Positions 1 through 5,790 of a stretch of 5,790 nt of DNA are shown here, one piece after another; position 1 is the stretch's first letter; the number at the start of each line of letters is the position of its first letter. The notes below the pieces were generated by a model. The model was not told the DNA's origin. It searched no databases and was given only the letters and a program-made list of their open reading frames with translations. The stretch is taken from assembly GCA_017394605.1 (NCBI GenBank), contig JAFPXU010000014.1, positions 1-5,790 of the forward strand, given 5' to 3'. This DNA comes from Clostridia bacterium (GTDB lineage Bacteria > Bacillota_A > Clostridia > Christensenellales > CAG-138). The position numbers were made by a program, and so were the translations under genes.

Positions 1-43
1 ATTCGGGCTACCTCCCATCATCCAAAAGATGAGGATCGTACTG

Positions 44-82
44 AAAAACGGAGGGGAAAGGATTCCTCCAACCCCCTCCGTT
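44..82 (-). terminator. Rho-independent terminator of the substrate-binding protein gene
   Basis: Read on the minus strand, a perfect 10-bp stem (AACGGAGGGG at 73-82 pairing with CCCCTCCGTT at 47-56) with a 16-nt loop runs into five T residues (44-48). It begins 26 bp after the stop codon of the minus-strand gene. The placement and T-run fit intrinsic termination. It could be leaky and let some transcription reach transporter genes further left, which is common after binding-protein genes. Confidence 0.85.
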
Positions 83-108
83 CATCGCAATGACGGTTCA
101 GAAGTTCA

Positions 109-1251
109 TTAACCCATGAGCGGTACGACTTCGTTCTCCCACGCTTCGGAAATCGCTTCGCATGCTGCGTTCAGCTGTGCAGCGGATTCCGGCGTGATGA
201 TGTTCTGGTAGTATTCATCGCCGAGGATCGGGCAGTCATCCGGGATGTCGATCTGATCCGCACGGATCGGACGGGCACCGCCGCGGGCACGGTCGATCTG
301 GCCCTCGTCGCTGAACAGGTAGTTCAGGGCGACACGGGCGGCATAGGGATGCGCAGCCCATTTGTTGAGTACCAGCGCGTAGCCGGTCGAGAGAGCGCCG
401 TCCTGCGGGATCACATAGGAGATGTGCACGCCGGGGATGTTCTTCTCGTTCAGGTCTTTCGCGAAGTTGGAGCCGTTGAAGTCAAAACGTCCGCAGCCGC
501 AGACGATCTGGCCGGTCTCGAAGTCGGTCTCGCCCGCGTCACCGCCATCCAGACGGCCTGCCTTGGCGAGCTCGATGCACTTATCGATGCAGGGACGGAT
601 GTTGTCCCATGTTCCGCCGAGTGCGAAGTTCATGGCCAGCATATCGACCTGGGAGGAAGCGCCGCCGATGACGTTGCCGAATGCCAGGTTGATGTCTTCT
701 CTCTCAAGAAGCTCTTTCCAGGTCGTGGGGAGTTCACCCTCGATCGCCGCATCGTTGAAGATGAACGCGGTGCTGCCGGTGTAGGAGAGCGCCCACTTGT
801 GATCGGGATCCTTCGCCCAGTCGGGAATCTTGTCCCAGACATCGACGGTGTAGGGCTGGATGCAGTCCTGCTCAACAGCCGTGACGGTGAAGGCATAGCC
901 GATGTCGCCGAGGTCCATCGTCGGGTCATCCTTTTCCGCGATGAACAGCGCAAGCTCTTCCGCGGAGGAGAGGTCCGGGTCGACGTTCCTGTCGATGCCG
1001 TACTTTTCCTTGAGGGTCGCGAAGGAATCGGACCACAGTGTCCAGTAATCCGGGAGACCTGCCGTTCCGACGTAGCCTTCGGATTTCTCCAGCAGCTGAT
1101 CCAACGTCATGGAGTCGAAATCAACCGCAGCGTCCGCGGCGGGAGCCGCAGCGTCCGTCTTCGGGGCTTCCGTTGTTGCCGCGGGTGCGGAACATCCGAA
1201 GCAGAACAGAGCGAAGACGACAGCAAGTGCCAACGCAAGATACTTCTTCAT
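109..1251 (-). CDS. ABC transporter substrate-binding lipoprotein (AfuA/PotD-type fold)
   Basis: This is an extracellular solute-binding protein of 380 residues, expected to be lipid-anchored outside the membrane and to deliver substrate to an ABC importer. Residues 1-19 form a signal peptide (MKKY, then a hydrophobic stretch) ending at Cys20. The lipobox C-F-G-C is unusual at -3 and -2. Residues 21-45 are an Ala/Thr/Pro-rich linker. The mature part has a run typical of family 6/8 binding proteins: GLPDYW at 65-70, SSAEELALFIAEK at 95-107, DLGDIGYA at 113-120, WDKIPDWAKD at 139-148, YTGSTAFIFND at 157-167, DFNG at 257-260, IPQDGALSTGYALVLNKWA at 281-299 and SDEGQI...RGGARPIRA at 314-331. The start is set by AAGGAGG 11 nt upstream. 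AfuA-type relatives bind iron or sugar phosphates and PotD-type relatives bind polyamines, so the ligand is not readable here. No permease or ATPase gene is adjacent in the window. The divergent neighbour is a PHP phosphoesterase, which makes a phosphorylated ligand a reasonable guess. Confidence 0.9.
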   Translation of the reverse strand: MKKYLALALAVVFALFCFGCSAPAATTEAPKTDAAAPAADAAVDFDSMTLDQLLEKSEGYVGTAGLPDYWTLWSDSFATLKEKYGIDRNVDPDLSSAEELALFIAEKDDPTMDLGDIGYAFTVTAVEQDCIQPYTVDVWDKIPDWAKDPDHKWALSYTGSTAFIFNDAAIEGELPTTWKELLEREDINLAFGNVIGGASSQVDMLAMNFALGGTWDNIRPCIDKCIELAKAGRLDGGDAGETDFETGQIVCGCGRFDFNGSNFAKDLNEKNIPGVHISYVIPQDGALSTGYALVLNKWAAHPYAARVALNYLFSDEGQIDRARGGARPIRADQIDIPDDCPILGDEYYQNIITPESAAQLNAACEAISEAWENEVVPLMG

Positions 1252-1280
1252 TTCTTTTGTTTCCTCCTTGATTTATCTAT

Positions 1281-1298
1281 GAACCCCAAACGGGGATC
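1281..1298 (-). other. Hairpin close to the start of the substrate-binding protein gene
   Basis: On the minus-strand transcript CCCC (1292-1295) pairs with GGGG (1284-1287) around a GTTT loop. After one mismatch, three flanking base pairs extend the stem. It lies about 12 nt upstream of the AAGGAGG ribosome binding site and could affect translation or mRNA stability. It is short and could be incidental. Confidence 0.35.
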
Positions 1299-1308
1299 AT
1301 TCCGAACG

Positions 1309-1389
1309 AAAAAACAAATAAAAAACGACGACCGGAAGGACGCGTATGCGCCGTCCGACGCCGCGGGCGGCGAAGGTCCGTTTGGAACC
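1309..1389 (-). promoter_or_regulatory. Structured 5' leader with possible attenuator
   Basis: The predicted minus-strand leader runs from about 1397 to 1252. It contains in order a GGT(T)CC/GGACC hairpin (1375-1389), a CGCCG/CGGCG hairpin (1359-1372) and a GGAC-GCG type hairpin with one bulge (1338-1356). CCGGTCGTCG (1326-1335) follows, directly before T6-A-T3-G-T6 (1309-1325). CGGCGTCGG (1355-1363) can pair imperfectly with that last arm, with one mismatch, one bulge and a G-U pair, and this would form a terminator-like stem on the T-run. That pairing excludes the 1359-1372 hairpin, so two alternative folds are possible. No known riboswitch was recognised. The attenuator reading is inference. 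Confidence 0.35.
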
Positions 1390-1403
1390 GATGCACTGAA
1401 TGT

Positions 1404-1432
1404 ATATTAGCATTCTGTAAATAAAAATTCAA
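1404..1432 (-). promoter_or_regulatory. Sigma-A-like promoter for the substrate-binding protein gene
   Basis: On the minus strand TTGAAT (1427-1432) and TAATAT (1404-1409) are separated by exactly 17 bp in an A/T-rich setting. The expected start near 1397 gives a leader of about 146 nt before the ATG at 1251. Confidence 0.7.
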
Positions 1433-1528
1433 CAAAAAAACAGAAGCCTGCATTATTATATACGATTCGATTCGATCCTTCCGTCCCCAACGCCGCGTTT
1501 CGATGCTATAATGAGGTTAAATTCAACA
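1425..1528 (+). repeat. Duplicated AAATTCAACA in the divergent promoter region
   Basis: The 10-mer AAATTCAACA occurs at 1425-1434 and again at 1519-1528 in the same orientation. The first copy covers the -35 element of the minus-strand promoter. The second covers the expected transcription start of the plus-strand gene and lies in an interrupted dyad, GTTAAATTCAAC (1516-1527). The layout would suit one regulator acting on both promoters, but the motif is short and A/T-rich. Confidence 0.35.
1504..1512 (+). promoter_or_regulatory. Extended -10 promoter for the PHP gene
   Basis: TGCTATAAT combines a TGN extension with a perfect -10 hexamer (TATAAT at 1507-1512). No good -35 hexamer sits 16-18 bp upstream, where the sequence is C-rich, so this would be an extended -10 promoter. 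The transcription start would fall near 1519, leaving a leader of about 27 nt. Confidence 0.6.
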
Positions 1529-1545
1529 CAGCAAAGGACCTGCAT

Positions 1546-2976
1546 ATGAGAACAGAATACCTCCCCCGCGTCTGCGTCTGCAGGGGCGCCTTCCAGACCG
1601 ATTTCACACTCGACTACGACTGGTTTCCCCGCGTCGTCACGGCGGGAAAGGAGACCGTCATCCATATCCGCCAGCTCGGCGGGAGCCCGCGCTTTCTGCC
1701 GGACACGGACTATACCCTGATCTTTTGCCCGACCACGCAGGGCAAGCCCGTCGACTATCCGGTCATGTCCGGCTATGAGACCGAAACGGTGCGCACGGAC
1801 GGCGAGGGCAGTTTCCATATCAGGCATACGTTTCCCACCGAGCAGGAATATTATCTAAGATTCTACAGCAGCGAGGACCGGCTTCTCGACCAGTTCCCCG
1901 TCTACTGCGTCGCAGAGGACCTTGTCGGCCTCTACCCCTTCATCGGCGACACGCATCTGCATACCTGCCGTTCCGACGGAAGGCAGACGCCCGCGGTCGT
2001 CGCGGCAAACTACCGGAAGATCGGCTATGACTTCCTCGCGATCACCGACCATCACCGCTACTACCCCTCCCTGGAGGCGCTGCGGTTCTATAAGGACGTC
2101 CCGACGGAGCTGTGCATCGTGCCGGGCGAGGAGGTCCAGCTCCCGGACGCAAACGGCCTGCACAACGACGTCCATATCATCAACTTCGGCGGTCTCTACA
2201 GTGTCAACGCCCTGGCGGAGGGGCCGAACCGCTCCGAAGCCGGCGACGGGAAAATGATGCGCTCTCTGGACGGCGACGCGCCGGATTCCATGACGCAGGC
2301 GGAGTACGACGCGCTCATGCAGAAGCTGACCGATGAGATCGACTGTCCGGAGGACATCGACAGCTTCCCCGCCGCGAACTGCAAGTGGGTCTTCGATGAG
2401 ATCCGGAAGGCGGACGGGCTTGGGATCTTCGTGCACCCTTACTGGATCAGCGACGTGTACCACGTCCCGGAACGGTTCACGGACTACGTGGTGGACAGCG
2501 GGATGTTCGACGCGTTCGAGGTCCTGGGCGGAGAGCGCTACTACGAACAGAACGGCTTCCAGACGATCCGCTACTACGAGGACAAGGCAAAAGGGCATGT
2601 CTACCCCATCGTCGGCGCGACGGACAGCCACAGCTCGCATCCGTCCAACGACGGCGCCTACGTCGCGGCCACGATTGTCTTCGCCGAAAAGAACGAGAGA
2701 AAGACGCTGATCAGCGCCATCAAAAACTTCCATAGCGTCGCGGTCGACAAGATCAGCAAAGAATTCCGCATGGTCGGGGACCTGCGCCTCGTCAAATACG
2801 CGACGTTCCTCTATCAGTATTACTTCCCGATGCACAACGAGCTCTGCTTTGAGGAGGGACGTCTTATGAAGCAGTACGCGACGGGTCTTCCCGGGGAGCG
2901 GGACGAAGCGCTCCGGACGCTTTTGTGCATCTGCGGGCGCGTCGGAAAACTGAAGGACAAGTATTTCGATTTCTGA
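1546..2976 (+). CDS. PHP-domain metal-dependent phosphoesterase with N-terminal extension
   Basis: This is a 476-residue protein with the motifs of the PHP (polymerase and histidinol phosphatase) superfamily, whose members use two or three metal ions to hydrolyse phosphoesters. Visible metal-site motifs are DTHLHT (His137, His139) with SDG at 143-145, ITDHH (Asp168, His169) at 166-170, PGEE (Glu195/196) at 193-196, DVHI (His210) at 208-211, FVHPYW (His297) at 295-300 and GATDSHSS (Asp360, His362) at 357-364. All expected positions are kept, so the enzyme is probably active. Residues 1-128 precede the PHP core and look beta-rich with no signal peptide, so a cytoplasmic location is likely. The C-terminal 100 residues are mostly helical. 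The layout recalls CehA/McbA-like PHP proteins, but the substrate cannot be told. The start is supported by AAAGGA (1533-1538), 7 nt before ATG and just after a good -10. The gene is divergent from the binding protein and probably co-transcribed with the next gene. Confidence 0.88.
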   Translation: MRTEYLPRVCVCRGAFQTDFTLDYDWFPRVVTAGKETVIHIRQLGGSPRFLPDTDYTLIFCPTTQGKPVDYPVMSGYETETVRTDGEGSFHIRHTFPTEQEYYLRFYSSEDRLLDQFPVYCVAEDLVGLYPFIGDTHLHTCRSDGRQTPAVVAANYRKIGYDFLAITDHHRYYPSLEALRFYKDVPTELCIVPGEEVQLPDANGLHNDVHIINFGGLYSVNALAEGPNRSEAGDGKMMRSLDGDAPDSMTQAEYDALMQKLTDEIDCPEDIDSFPAANCKWVFDEIRKADGLGIFVHPYWISDVYHVPERFTDYVVDSGMFDAFEVLGGERYYEQNGFQTIRYYEDKAKGHVYPIVGATDSHSSHPSNDGAYVAATIVFAEKNERKTLISAIKNFHSVAVDKISKEFRMVGDLRLVKYATFLYQYYFPMHNELCFEEGRLMKQYATGLPGERDEALRTLLCICGRVGKLKDKYFDF

Positions 2977-3021
2977 CGGTCCTCCGTCCGTGATCGATCC
3001 AGTCAACCGTGAGGAACCGTT

Positions 3022-4443
3022 ATGCATGATGCATCAAAAGGAATGAAAAAAACCGCGCATTTCTACGGCAGCGGACGCGTGCCGGGATGGCTGAAGAAGA
3101 TTCGGGCAAAAACGCTCCGGACAGACGAGGAGCTTTCCGCGTTCGCTCTTTCGTGCCGGGACAGTTCGCTCCGCCGGGACGTGCTTTCGGCTGTCGACCG
3201 CATCACGGACCGGGACGAGCTTTTAAAGATCGCCGCCTCGGACGCGGACAAGTCGGTCCGTCTGCGCGCGCTGGAACGTTTCCCGCGCGACCGCTCGTTT
3301 CTGCTGGCGGTCAAGGCTTCCGCGAAGCACTGGAGTCCCTCTCTTTCCAACCTGTATCCGGTCGAATCGCTGGCAGTCGAACTGCTGAAGGCTCAGGAAG
3401 CGGACGCCCTCGCAGAGGCGCCGGACGAAAACGCGGTCGCAAAGCTTGTCTCCGGCGGAGCCGTGACCGAATCCCTTTCGGAAGCGATGAGACGGATCAC
3501 AAGCGAATCCGTCCTTCTGGATCTTCTGAACAGAAACGTCGGCCCTGACGTCGACGCGGCTGTGCTGGGCCGCTCCCGTCACCCGGACGCGTCGTGCGGA
3601 GCGGACTTTCAACGCGCCGTAACGGATCTTAGCCTCGCGGGACGGTTCCGCGGGCTGGAATCCTCCGTAACGGGATGTCTGAACGATCCAAAGCTTCTGA
3701 CCGAGATCCTGGACAAAACCCGCAATCCGGCTCTTGCCGCCTCGGCCGCGGACGATCTGTTCTGGCTCTATGACCTAGCAAAGCGGAGCGGCACGGCGCT
3801 TCCGCCTCTGTCGGACGCGCAGCAGGACGTTCTGGTTCGCCACCTCGCCGGTCAGAACCGCCTTTGCCGCAATCCCGCGCTGGGGCTGCTGGACCCGAGG
3901 CACCTGAAAAACCTGTACGCGCAGATCAAAGATGACGAAGACCGGCTGGAGATCGTCCGCCGCCTTCCGCAGAACGAGTTTACCGACGGGCTGATAAACG
4001 ATCTGCTGAAGATGCCCGGCGGAAGGATCCGGGACCAATGGGAACGCGGGCTTGCGGGCTTTTCCACCGAGCGCCTGACCGAGATCGTCCGGACCCATCC
4101 CGACTGGAGATACCGCGTCAAGGCGATGGAATTCGCGGTCAGCAGACTGCTCCGTGAAGAAAACGCAACGGAGCGCATCGACGCGGTCGTCCTTCCGATG
4201 ATCGACGAAATCCGCACCGAAAACGGACATATCGGCAGCATGCTGGTCGACATCTTCCACGCGCTGCCCGAGGAGCTCAATTCCCATTTCGGCTTTGAGC
4301 CGGAATATGAAGAAGGCGAAACGATCGACGACGCGGAATGGAGCACGCTCAAGGTCCGATACGGCGGACATCAGTACTGGGTCTATTATTCGCAGACGGA
4401 CGGCGGCGGCTACTGCCCGCCGTACGGCGAGCAGATCTCCTGA
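3022..4443 (+). CDS. HEAT-like alpha-helical repeat protein of unknown function
   Basis: This 473-residue protein has no recognised enzymatic motif. Much of it reads as paired amphipathic helices of about 25-30 residues, as in HEAT or leucine-rich-variant solenoids. The clearest unit is residues 49-88, where helices are joined by acidic turns (ITDRDELLKIAASDADKSVR at 61-80). Looser copies lie around 155-185, 222-250, 305-345 and 348-378. Such solenoids usually act as protein-binding scaffolds. The tail (about 440-473) departs from the repeats, is rich in Tyr and Gly, and ends in YCPPYGE near the C terminus. No signal peptide or membrane segment is visible, so it is probably cytoplasmic. The ATG at 3022 follows GAGGAA (3011-3016) by 5 nt. 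The next in-frame ATG, at 3043, has no usable spacing. It lies 45 bp after the PHP gene with no terminator between, which suggests one operon. Its last codons carry a perfect palindrome shared with the hipB-like promoter region. Confidence 0.8.
   Translation: MHDASKGMKKTAHFYGSGRVPGWLKKIRAKTLRTDEELSAFALSCRDSSLRRDVLSAVDRITDRDELLKIAASDADKSVRLRALERFPRDRSFLLAVKASAKHWSPSLSNLYPVESLAVELLKAQEADALAEAPDENAVAKLVSGGAVTESLSEAMRRITSESVLLDLLNRNVGPDVDAAVLGRSRHPDASCGADFQRAVTDLSLAGRFRGLESSVTGCLNDPKLLTEILDKTRNPALAASAADDLFWLYDLAKRSGTALPPLSDAQQDVLVRHLAGQNRLCRNPALGLLDPRHLKNLYAQIKDDEDRLEIVRRLPQNEFTDGLINDLLKMPGGRIRDQWERGLAGFSTERLTEIVRTHPDWRYRVKAMEFAVSRLLREENATERIDAVVLPMIDEIRTENGHIGSMLVDIFHALPEELNSHFGFEPEYEEGETIDDAEWSTLKVRYGGHQYWVYYSQTDGGGYCPPYGEQIS
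4418..4429. promoter_or_regulatory. Palindrome copy A (CGCCGTACGGCG), candidate operator
   Basis: This is a perfect 12-bp palindrome inside the last codons of the HEAT-like gene, where it encodes part of PPYGE. It is identical over 12 bp to copy B at 4783-4794. It lies about 80 bp upstream of the phd start codon and 10 bp upstream of a possible -35 element, where it could serve as an operator for phd. Because it is within coding sequence it could also be chance. Confidence 0.45.
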
Positions 4444-4467
4444 CATAAGAAGTCCTGACGTTATGCA
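4440..4467 (+). promoter_or_regulatory. Weak candidate promoter for the phd-like gene
   Basis: CTGACA (4440-4445) differs from the -35 consensus at one base and overlaps the stop codon of the upstream gene. TATGCA (4462-4467) follows at 16 bp but is a poor -10. TCCTGAC is repeated at 4438-4444 and 4453-4459. Transcription could instead come from the upstream operon. Confidence 0.25.
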
Positions 4468-4506
4468 CATATTGAGATGATCTGACTTTCAAAAGGAGGC
4501 GGCATT

Positions 4507-4779
4507 ATGGAAAAACGGATCCGTCCATCCGCTGATCTCAAAAATCACTATGCCGATATCTCAAAAACCTGTAAGGAGTCCCATCAGCCGGTGATCATCA
4601 CTGTCAACGGACAAGCCGATACGGTCATATTGAGTTTACAGGATTACCGTCAGATGCATTCGGATCTGGAACTGCTGCGCATGCTGGCCGACAGCGAATC
4701 GGATGTTTCCGCGAATCGTATTGCCCCGATAGAAGGTTCCTTCCGTAATCTGCGTACGCGTCTTTTCGAAAGCAATTGA
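4507..4779 (+). CDS. Phd/YefM-family antitoxin without adjacent toxin
   Basis: This 90-residue protein looks like a complete type II antitoxin of the Phd/YefM family. Such proteins bind DNA as dimers through the N-terminal domain and neutralise a RelE/ParE- or Doc-type toxin through the C-terminal helix. Residues 5-50 match the N-terminal fold: IRPSADLKNHYADI, then QPVIITVNGQADTVILSLQDY at 27-47. Residues 54-87 (LELLRMLADSESDV...RIAPIEG...LRTRLF) form the toxin-binding tail. The start is preceded by a perfect AAAGGAGG (4492-4499) at 7-nt spacing. The toxin gene that normally overlaps or follows at once is absent. The next 104 bp are non-coding and carry palindromes, then comes a HipB-like gene. 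GC is about 50%, lower than the flanking genes, consistent with acquired DNA. It may now act as a free regulator or protect against a toxin encoded elsewhere. Confidence 0.85.
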   Translation: MEKRIRPSADLKNHYADISKTCKESHQPVIITVNGQADTVILSLQDYRQMHSDLELLRMLADSESDVSANRIAPIEGSFRNLRTRLFESN

Positions 4780-4804
4780 CTTCGCCGTACGGCGCAGTAA
4801 TTAT
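4776..4804 (+). promoter_or_regulatory. Candidate promoter for the hipB-like gene with operator in its spacer
   Basis: TTGACT (4776-4781, five of six matches to the -35 consensus) overlaps the phd stop codon. An A/T-rich -10 candidate follows: TAATTA (4798-4803) at 16 bp or AATTAT (4799-4804) at 17 bp. The 12-bp palindrome at 4783-4794 fills the spacer, so a bound dimer would block polymerase. The -10 match is only moderate. Confidence 0.5.
4783..4794. promoter_or_regulatory. Palindrome copy B (CGCCGTACGGCG), candidate operator
   Basis: This perfect 12-bp palindrome starts 3 bp after the phd stop codon and lies between the -35 and -10 candidates of the hipB-like gene. It is the first member of the 39-bp phased series. 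Its GTAC centre also occurs in TGTACA operators described for YefM/Phd proteins, so either neighbouring regulator could be the binder. Confidence 0.65.
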
Positions 4805-4821
4805 GAATCTGAACGATATTT

Positions 4822-4833
4822 AGCCGTTCGGCT
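4822..4833. promoter_or_regulatory. Palindrome copy C (AGCCGTTCGGCT), candidate operator
   Basis: This has the same arms as copies B and D but a TT centre instead of TA, so it is palindromic except at the middle pair. Its centre is 39 bp from both B and D. It lies in a stretch of about 32% GC downstream of the hipB-like promoter candidate. Confidence 0.6.
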
Positions 4834-4861
4834 TATTTTATTGGAATCTGATGCTTTTTTA

Positions 4862-4871
4862 GCCGTACGGC
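4862..4871. promoter_or_regulatory. Palindrome copy D (GCCGTACGGC), candidate operator
   Basis: This perfect 10-bp palindrome ends one base before the AAGGAGG ribosome binding site (4873-4879) of the hipB-like gene. A protein bound here would act as a roadblock inside the leader rather than at the promoter. Confidence 0.6.
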
Positions 4872-4883
4872 GAAGGAGGACGC

Positions 4884-5096
4884 ATGATCGTCATAGATGC
4901 AAAACAGTTCGGGGAGGCAGTCCGCAAAAGAAGAAAGGCGCTCGGTTACACCCAGCGGTTTCTCTGTGAATTCAGCGGGCTGAGCGTCAGCTTCCTTTCT
5001 GACCTGGAGAACGGAAAAGCGACGATCGAACTGGAAAAAGCAATCCGGGTCGCAAACCTGCTCGGTATGGACTGTTCGTTGTCCGCCAGGGGATAG
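4884..5096 (+). CDS. HipB-like helix-turn-helix antitoxin/regulator (y4mF type)
   Basis: This is a small 70-residue Xre-family DNA-binding protein. Residues 8-20 (QFGEAVRKRRKAL) form helix 1, GYTQRFLCEFSGL at 21-33 contains helix 2, and SVSFLSDLENGK at 34-45 is the recognition helix and turn. IELEKAIRVANLLGMDCSL (48-66) closes the fold. The pattern SGLS..F.SDLENGK...LEK..RV...LG matches the HipB-like group that normally pairs with a HipA-type Ser/Thr kinase toxin and represses its own operon. Here the reading frame after it stops within 23 codons, so no HipA is present. The start is set by AAGGAGG (4873-4879) 4 nt before ATG. Three GCCGTWCGGC palindromes lie upstream and are the most likely autoregulatory operators. 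Whether this protein or the upstream Phd-like protein binds them cannot be decided from sequence. Confidence 0.85.
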   Translation: MIVIDAKQFGEAVRKRRKALGYTQRFLCEFSGLSVSFLSDLENGKATIELEKAIRVANLLGMDCSLSARG

Positions 5097-5099
5097 CGC

Positions 5100-5171
5100 A
5101 TGGAATACGATTTTGTTACGATAGGAGCCTCTTCCTTCGGACACAGCAGGGAATATTTATTCTTTTCTTAA
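5100..5171 (+). pseudogene. 23-codon ORF after hipB, possible hipA remnant
   Basis: An ATG 3 nt after the hipB-like stop, preceded by AGGGGA at workable spacing, opens a frame of only 23 codons (MEYDFVTIGASSFG, then a short Phe-rich end) closed by TAA. hipA normally starts at this point, so it may be what remains of a toxin gene after a deletion. The peptide itself does not recognisably match HipA, so it could equally be a chance ORF. Confidence 0.35.
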
Positions 5172-5176
5172 TTTCC

Positions 5177-5215
5177 CCGCCACTTTGCCACCGGGCGTGT
5201 GGCGGCCTTTCTTTT
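5177..5215 (+). terminator. Terminator after the hipB-like gene
   Basis: CCGCCAC (5177-5183) pairs with GTGGCGG (5199-5205) around a 15-nt loop, followed by CCTTTCTTTT. An alternative inner stem GCCAC/GTGGC is also possible. The T-run is interrupted by C, so efficiency may be moderate. It ends the plus-strand regulator region. Confidence 0.6.
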
Positions 5216-5253
5216 CCACGCCACGTGATTGTCCACAGCCAGTGTAAAACGGG

Positions 5254-5277
5254 AAAAAGCCCGGAAAAACGGGCTTT
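5254..5277 (-). terminator. Terminator of the right-edge minus-strand gene
   Basis: AAAGCCCG (5270-5277 read on the minus strand) pairs perfectly with CGGGCTTT (5256-5263) around a 6-nt loop and continues into TTTTT (5254-5258 on the minus strand). The plus-strand reading has only three T residues after the stem, so it mainly serves the minus-strand gene. Some effect in the other direction is possible. Confidence 0.8.
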
Positions 5278-5315
5278 CATCCTGTGGTGTGTATGGGTCT
5301 ACAAAGGCTGTATCA

Positions 5316-5341
5316 AACGCCTCCTGATGGCAGGAAGCGTT
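5316..5341 (-). other. Hairpin just downstream of the right-edge gene
   Basis: A 10-bp stem with one mismatch (AACGC-TCCTG against CAGGA-GCGTT) and a 4-nt loop begins 4 bp after the minus-strand stop codon. Only three T residues follow it on that strand. It may protect the mRNA 3' end or act as a weak first terminator before the stronger one at 5254-5277. Confidence 0.4.
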
Positions 5342-5345
5342 ACGG

Positions 5346-5790
5346 CTATGCCTCGGGCTCCTCGTTCAGAACATCCCGGATGGCGTCGCCGAATCCGGCG
5401 CAGGTCACGGATCTGACCTTCAGCGGTCCGAAGTCCGCATCCTCGTCAAAATCATAGTTCTCGTTCGGCACATAATCCCCCTCCATGACCATCTCATAGG
5501 CAAAGGGACCGTATTCCATCGTGAACGTCATATCATCCAGCTGCCAGCCGGACAGGATCCATCCTTCGTCCTTGAGCTCCTGCCCCGTCTTGCCGATCAG
5601 GCCGTTGAGCTCTTCCTGGGAGGGCATCTGCTCGGTCAGGTTGTCAATCCGGGCAACGGGGAGCGGACCGACCAGTTCCCGGACCTTCTCGTCACGGTGC
5701 TCGTCGAAGAAGTCCAGCGCAAAAAGGGCCTCGGAAACATCCGCGGGCAGGTCCGCCACCGCGCGGTACGTGACGCCGTCCTTTTCAAAC
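5346..5790 (-). CDS. C-terminal part of a protein of unknown function (runs off the window)
   Basis: About 147 residues are visible before a TAG stop. The frame stays open to the right edge, with FEKDGVTYRAV preceding the GTG at 5757-5759. That GTG has no ribosome binding site at proper spacing, so the true start is probably outside the window. The protein is strongly acidic, with an Asp/Glu-rich stretch (NYDFDEDADFG) and an aromatic, strand-like middle (GWILSGWQLDDMTFTMEYGP). The segment ELNGLIGKTGQELKDEGW resembles the loop-helix start of some small secreted or lipoprotein folds, but no family was recognised. It ends in EEPEA. It has its own terminator at 5254-5277 and converges on the hipB-like gene. 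Confidence 0.7.
   Translation of the reverse strand, partial: FEKDGVTYRAVADLPADVSEALFALDFFDEHRDEKVRELVGPLPVARIDNLTEQMPSQEELNGLIGKTGQELKDEGWILSGWQLDDMTFTMEYGPFAYEMVMEGDYVPNENYDFDEDADFGPLKVRSVTCAGFGDAIRDVLNEEPEA

Follow-up and report, generated by a model that had tools for sequence, protein, structure and literature searches.

Which protein, if any, reads the three evenly spaced palindromes that separate a Phd/YefM-like antitoxin gene from a HipB-like gene in the stretch of Clostridial DNA analyzed here (5,790 nucleotides, hereinafter the window)? The features involved are the following:

4507..4779, + strand: Phd/YefM-like antitoxin gene, phd (PF02604, 2.5e-14)
4776..4804, + strand: predicted sigma-70-type promoter, TTGACT (4776-4781), 17-bp spacer, AATTAT (4799-4804)
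4784..4793, no strand: predicted operator O1, GCCGTACGGC, inside the promoter spacer
4823..4832, no strand: predicted operator O2, GCCGTTCGGC, within the part presumed to be transcribed first
4862..4871, no strand: predicted operator O3, GCCGTACGGC, directly 5' of the Shine-Dalgarno-like AAGGAGG
4884..5096, + strand: HipB-like XRE helix-turn-helix gene (70 aa; PF01381, 3.2e-12), the presumed reader of the array
5097..5171, + strand: place of the missing hipA, where the related locus L001 has a 440-aa HipA

As the original prediction stated, the palindromes match GCCGTWCGGC and start at 4784, 4823 and 4862, with a step of exactly 39 bp; no equally spaced GCCGWWCGGC triple arose in 1000 dinucleotide shuffles of the window, which contained on average 0.086 copies of this palindrome each. 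Within the region 4780-4883, lag 39 yields the top self-identity among lags 5-59 (38/65), and an agnostic three-palindrome detector gives the window a score of 67 versus a maximum of 46 in 30 shuffles. The octamer GAATCTGA also repeats with the 39-bp period (4805 and 4844), just as had been noticed, and the remark that 39 bp is not a whole number of helical turns, so that successive sites would lie on rotated faces of the DNA, is arithmetically correct; the wrapping or bending of DNA proposed on this basis may be a consequence. No plasmid copies of the window region were matched. A fourth exact copy of GCCGTACGGC is found at 4419, in the 3' end of the ORF 3022-4443, where 78 bp separate it from the start of phd; its counterpart in L001 is GCCGTATGGC, which differs by one core base. 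This copy was set aside as an operator given its location in a coding region and the core base that differs in L001, and it is treated as a product of chance or coding constraint; it may also be a further site. The ORF itself encodes 473 aa, is alignable in L001, and has no NCBIfam or PADLOC match up to 0.1 and a single Pfam match (0.079), which is below the cut-off.

The predicted hipB promoter has 9 of 12 matches, a level at which 0.9 promoters are expected in shuffles of the region against the one found; its -35 element overlaps the phd stop codon. The product of the gene downstream contains the XRE helix-turn-helix domain that is expected of a HipB antitoxin, with a score under the curated cut-off of TIGR03070 (couple_hipB; 62.8 vs 71.65 bits). 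The four best PDB matches to its AlphaFold model (pLDDT 94) are HipB chains of 7ab4, 4pu7 and 7ab3, of which 7ab4 and 7ab3 represent HipBST from Escherichia coli and 4pu7 comes from Shewanella; 4yg1 (E. coli HipB on O1-O2 DNA) and 8ezt (Legionella HipB) occupy rows 8 and 9, and the HipB chains among the ten best matches align with the model at TM 0.81-0.90. A designed DNA-binding protein and C.AhdI are also among the top fold matches. The predicted fold of the 70-aa protein is HipB-like.

The array and its promoter across relatives

A scan of 84,980 species, with one genome per species, confirmed 463 relatives of the window HipB. The best 80 of these 463, which are 59-94% identical and come from Lachnospiraceae, Oscillospiraceae, other Clostridia and Solobacterium, were kept and together with the window make up 81 loci; viral relatives (L081-L085) are partial matches. 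With sites defined by 6/8 core bases and steps of 37-41 bp, at least three sites are present upstream of hipB in 70 of the 81 loci, and the steps within these arrays are 39 bp (117 cases), 38 bp (27), 40 bp (5) and 37 bp (3). Three in-register sites are found in 66 loci, four in 3, five in 1, two in 7 and one in 4, and the period is also kept in the arrays of four or five sites (L040, L064, L076, L080). When good sites (those with 7/8 core bases or more) are paired over the 81 loci without any step rule, 121 of the 181 distances not exceeding 100 bp fall at 37-40 bp, 56 at 75-79 bp and 4 elsewhere (itemized: 37 bp, 3; 38 bp, 18; 39 bp, 95; 40 bp, 5; 75-79 bp, 56; 20 bp, 2; 59 bp, 2). Spacing of the 39-bp type is found again in many gut and rumen bacteria. 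The proposed search of orthologous loci for palindromes and period upstream of HipB-like genes is answered by 70 of 81 loci that keep both; the original suggestion that conserved blocks with diverged spacers reflect protein binding is supported as well. The 11 loci with fewer than three sites upstream of hipB include L071, where the array lies before hipA, and L063, where just 145 bp of upstream sequence are available.

The information content in the 33 non-redundant loci of 39/39 spacing is 1.82 bits per core position and 0.70 at other positions, and the consensus of the first site is TTGACTtaGCCGTACGGC...TATAAT. Of the 70 arrays, 63 have their first site within a promoter-like spacer and 2 have the second site there, and in the other 5 no site is so placed; promoter-like means at least 9/12 matches, counted without a shuffle control. 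The last site is located 11 to 93 bp before the start of the hipB match among the arrays of relatives, so that overlap with the ribosome-binding site is not a constant feature. The core bases of the three palindromes are identical between the window and L001 (24/24, read from the alignment). Comparison of the HipB recognition helix with the half-site revealed no clear covariation. The octamer GAATCTGA fares differently: none of the 80 relatives has it in the stretch of up to 200 bp that precedes hipB, and it is not kept even in L001, which is 91.5% identical to the window. Since it is confined to the window among the 81 loci, the idea of a second factor reading this octamer fails and was rejected.

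Genome-wide, the pattern GCCGWWCGGC-N15..45-GCCGWWCGGC, which permits 31 spacings, matches in 24 of the 30 genomes of 30 loci, with all 37 pairs at 38 or 39 bp and on contigs that bear a hipB locus; a single pair, that of L011, follows hipA. The reversed-pattern control matches in 2 of the 30. Among 391 genomes of the class, the paired pattern occurs in four: those of L001 and L065 (G143), both with a 39-bp pair at hipB, G343, with a 39-bp pair away from hipB, and G087, whose pairs at 42 and 51 bp are taken as chance. The combined promoter-operator consensus TTGACNNNGCCGWWCGGC has 27 matches, distributed over 25 of 32 genomes, and the reversed control has none; by their coordinates, 23 of the matches correspond to hipB promoters, one to the promoter that hipA has for itself in L029 and one to the G343 array, and the other two, with a GCCGATCGGC core, appear to be fortuitous. 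This consensus offers a handle for finding this hipBA clade from DNA alone. The G343 case (L111 1837-1885, G343:C23:444336-444384) is a two-site 39-bp array with a hip-type promoter before a gene that was identified by eye as acetyltransferase-like, and no close HipB was found in the G343 assembly; it may be a captured promoter, a trace of a lost hipB, or the result of incomplete assembly.

Two other arrangements were observed. Comparison of L067 (4891-5213) with L073 and L074 shows that only the array and hipB are common to these loci (about 320 bp, 96%) and that the flanks are dissimilar, as if the array and hipB formed a unit that is mobile on its own. In L011, a second operator array follows hipA directly (2640-2687), which leaves hipBA between two direct repeats of its own control region.

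hipA, phd and the orphan hipB of the window

HipA-coding sequence, covering at least 274 residues and with a broken frame in some cases (L022, L026, L065), is found downstream of hipB in 66 of the 81 loci and upstream in two (L029 and L071). Thus, hipA adjoins hipB in 68 of 81 loci, so that the hipBA operon is the arrangement of the family and not of the window copy. The HipA proteins of L001, L023 and L040 contain both PF07804 and PF13657 (1.3e-46 and 1.3e-20, respectively, in L001). The two loci with the order hipA-hipB differ in the placement of sites: in L071 (85-1840), three sites with steps of 39 and 38 bp precede hipA, the first gene of the pair, whereas in L029 (2755-4506) each gene is preceded by a promoter-like sequence of its own, with a single site in the spacer for hipA and, for hipB, an array made up of two good sites plus a third, poor one. 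The distribution of hipA and of phd (below), together with the location of the L071 array before the first gene, indicates that the array follows the promoter of the hip operon rather than the neighboring genes.

A phd homolog, in contrast, is present upstream of hipB in only two of the 81 loci (the window and L001) and downstream in one (L009), although in five loci (L007, L012, L028, L030, L063) less than 400 bp of upstream DNA is available, which could hide a phd. In the window, there is no toxin gene between the Phd-like gene and hipB. Given that Phd is upstream in two of 81 loci, the array goes with hipB and hipA, and it does not travel with phd as an operator of the Phd/YefM type would; the role between two antitoxin genes that was originally assigned to it is not supported. 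In L009, a related Phd and a ParE-like toxin are encoded (5344-5951) downstream of a HipB that lacks HipA.

Alignment with L001 delineates the place of the missing toxin gene: window positions 1-5108 correspond to L001 123-5225 at 91.5% identity, and 5171-5790 to L001 6618-7194 at 85%, and the intervening part (5097-5171) keeps the first hipA codons followed by about 62 bp dissimilar to L001. Judging from this comparison, the window HipB is an orphan from which hipA has been lost; the apparent absence may also be an assembly error. A second loss of hipA, in a separate lineage, is apparent in L059 compared with L047, where the common block consists of the array and hipB and then the flank beyond hipA. 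About 400 bp in the place of hipA in L059 (5214-5619) match L034 9177-9566, so that the event was a rearrangement rather than a plain deletion; a second hipB piece is found in L034 at 8079-8226. Altogether, in the DNA available, hipA is absent or represented by no more than a remnant in 11 of the 81 loci, of which seven keep at least three sites and two (L051 and L063) have little upstream DNA; two further loci end too soon for a call. Presence of the array compared with toxin status gives 7/11 for the hipA-less versus 62/68 for the hipA-bearing loci (p 0.029, with L071 counted by the array before hipA and with L073 and L074 left out because contig ends are near), and with all three sites required to have at least 7/8 core bases, 6/13 versus 39/66 (p 0.54, with L029 and L071 counted as hipA-less). 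This association is given little weight.

Known hip promoters and other hip lineages of Clostridia

According to the cited sections of PMC3920265 and PMC3376134, E. coli hipBA has four TATCC-N8-GGATA operators to which HipB binds cooperatively; HipB bends the DNA by 70 degrees and is flanked by HipA, which acts as a co-repressor, and in the O1O2 oligonucleotide of PMC3376134 the sites are 28 bp apart. This system shares with the window an XRE-type HipB and several palindromic operator-like sites in the promoter, and the window model matches the E. coli HipB-O1-O2 structure 4yg1. In contrast, the motif of the window family is GCCGNNCGGC (GCCGTWCGGC in the window) rather than TATCC-N8-GGATA, the steps are 37-40 bp (39 in the window) rather than 28 bp, there are usually three sites rather than four, and the window lacks hipA. 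By sequence, then, the window has several palindromic operators in a hipB promoter, as hipBA does, and the sites are not of the E. coli operator class.

In the cited part of PMC10653801, Legionella hipBST, where the toxin is split into HipS and HipT, is reported to have three evenly spaced operators upstream of hipB that bind HipB and are conserved in 28 species; no difference in affinity among the three was detected, which the authors contrast with the cooperativity in E. coli. This arrangement resembles that of the window in the three evenly spaced sites upstream of hipB and differs from it in the 53-bp gaps between operators and in another motif with a conserved center. Three operators are also described for Caulobacter hipBA1 and hipBA2 (PMC8545095, in the part cited). 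Hip promoters with three sites are therefore already known. The combination of the GCCGNNCGGC motif with a 38-40 bp period in Clostridia was not found in print in the open-licence literature. The best reading of the window array appears to be autorepression by HipB or HipBA on evenly spaced operators, as a Clostridial variant of the hipBA/hipBST type.

HipA_C (PF07804) is present in 38 of 148 genomes of the class, above the cut-off in 32. In one lineage with a split HipA (hipBST-like loci L121, L122, L124-L127 and L172), each promoter has three palindromes, as in the window; their motif is TACCCTNNAGGGTA, unlike the GCCGNNCGGC of the window, and the steps are 41/41, 40/41, 40/41, 41/40, 40/40, 41/51 and 41/41 bp, that is, 40 or 41 bp in 13 of 14. 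The layout, judged by eye, is the reverse of that in the window: a promoter-like spacer holds the gene-nearest site, and the two others are found upstream of it. The TACCCTNNAGGGTA consensus was derived visually from the very loci on which it was then scored; in an unbiased test of the spacing, a scan of 291 genomes with 31 spacings permitted found it in four, with 7 of 7 pairs at 40-41 bp (control, 0), and these pairs are those of L124, L125, L127 and G239 (a copy of L124), with no new locus. Detector scores exceed the shuffle maximum for L121 (51 vs 48) and L172 (64 vs 50). L172 (reverse complement, 721-990) is a HipB of the split type in the L001 genome, with a 41/41-bp array of the TACCC type; HipA_C is found in this genome on two other contigs only, and L172 looks like another orphan.

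A different picture emerges for L123 (reverse complement), where four CTACGTTATCGTAG-like palindromes with a 27-bp period are located at 685-779, upstream of a helix-turn-helix gene and hipA (triple score 68 vs a shuffle maximum of 54). As in the window, evenly spaced palindromes precede hip genes; unlike in the window, the period nearly equals the 28 bp of E. coli, and the spacers, too, are almost identical. The array resembles a tandemly duplicated 27-bp unit that comprises the spacer. The 27-bp period argues against one common period of 39-41 bp for all hip systems. Among the other HipA families, no array above shuffles was detected for L113, L115, L116, L117 and L119. Among six other helix-turn-helix loci first scored, out of nine chosen from 30, only L180 rises above shuffles (54 vs 47; AT-rich, 22-23 bp); these six include L173, which was scored with a wrong start and is the L121 locus, and L172, L177 and L192 were left out for want of a suitable frame.

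Readers of the array and the meaning of its period

With considerable confidence, the three palindromes can be regarded as operators for HipB, jointly forming the region through which a hipBA toxin-antitoxin operon regulates itself, and the window array most likely belongs to the HipB-like gene at 4884-5096 rather than to Phd, as its distribution among loci suggests. By analogy with E. coli hipBA, we infer HipB binding, cooperativity and repression at the array, as follows. A HipB dimer would read each GCCGNNCGGC; occupancy of O1, between the -35 and -10 elements, would block RNA polymerase; and O2 and O3 lie downstream at one fixed period. Neighboring complexes probably touch, either via HipA on the flanks of every HipB dimer or because the DNA is bent, and joint filling of the sites would then make repression steep. 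In the window operon, which lacks hipA, bridging mediated by HipA would be impossible unless HipA comes from elsewhere, and repression of hipB by the orphan HipB itself most likely persists, although its cooperativity may be weaker.

A coupling of the two antitoxin genes through the Phd-like protein as reader of the array, whether by itself or jointly with HipB, is very unlikely. Phd-family proteins bind palindromes with a GTAC-like center, phd ends on the -35 element of the hipB promoter, and a fourth GCCGTACGGC precedes the phd start, all of which fits such a reader; yet the array is kept in 70 of 81 loci, with a phd homolog found upstream of hipB in two of the 81 and downstream in one, and the fourth copy is coding sequence that differs by a core base in L001. 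Phd was rejected as the reader on account of its rarity upstream of hipB. That the palindromes act at the RNA level, by forming small hairpins close to the ribosome-binding site, is extremely unlikely: O3 does abut the Shine-Dalgarno-like sequence in the window, but O1 lies in the promoter spacer and would be untranscribed from that promoter, the last site is 36 to 93 bp from the start of the hipB match in several relatives, and no Rfam family reaches the threshold in the window, on which ground an RNA element was rejected. The probability that the repeats are due to chance or to a mobile repeat family unrelated to hipB is vanishingly small. The copy at 4419, the array repeated after hipA in L011 and the two-site array away from hipB in G343 would fit such an origin, which is contradicted by the confinement of all 37 pairs to hipB contigs in the 30-genome scan and by the occurrence of the pair in just four of the 391 class genomes, at 39 bp in three and at hipB in two of these.

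A more serious alternative, which we consider possible if doubtful, is that HipB dimers bind independently and the even spacing stems from promoter geometry or a single tandem duplication rather than from contacts. The orphan status of the window HipB, without HipA, and the resemblance of L123 to a tandem duplication of a spacer-containing unit are compatible with this possibility, as are the three evenly spaced operators of Legionella, among which the cited part of PMC10653801 records no affinity difference. Against it, O1-O2 and O2-O3 stay at 38-40 bp (with two O2-O3 at 37) despite diverged spacers; the variable distance from the last site to hipB implies that the start codon is no anchor; and the split-HipA lineage keeps 40-41 bp in all but one step with another motif and with the promoter at the opposite end of the array.

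Returning to contacts between neighboring HipB complexes, the operator period might, tentatively, be a structural ruler: an assembly of HipB and HipA that tiles along the promoter would dictate it, and each HipB lineage would keep a particular value (37-40 bp for GCCGNNCGGC arrays, 40-41 bp for TACCCTNNAGGGTA arrays, and 27-28 bp in L123 and E. coli). The E. coli period of 28 bp is about one helical turn shorter than 39 bp, which is only a suggestion: at 10.5 bp per turn, steps of 27, 28, 38, 39, 40 and 41 bp correspond to 206, 240, 223, 257, 291 and 326 degrees, so that the short and long classes are about one turn apart while the angles scatter over about one third of a turn, which proves nothing.

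If the period is such a ruler, the palindrome and the end of the array that bears the promoter would be free to change, and orphan HipBs like that of the window would keep the ruler without the toxin. The hipBA locus is the founding persistence module, and, to our knowledge, sharing of a promoter by several HipB-HipA complexes is known from few systems, all in Proteobacteria. The dozens of Clostridia and their relatives described here provide natural variants of spacing and motif, swaps of gene order and toxin-less copies, which make the role of neighbor contacts and of HipA in holding the spacing directly testable.
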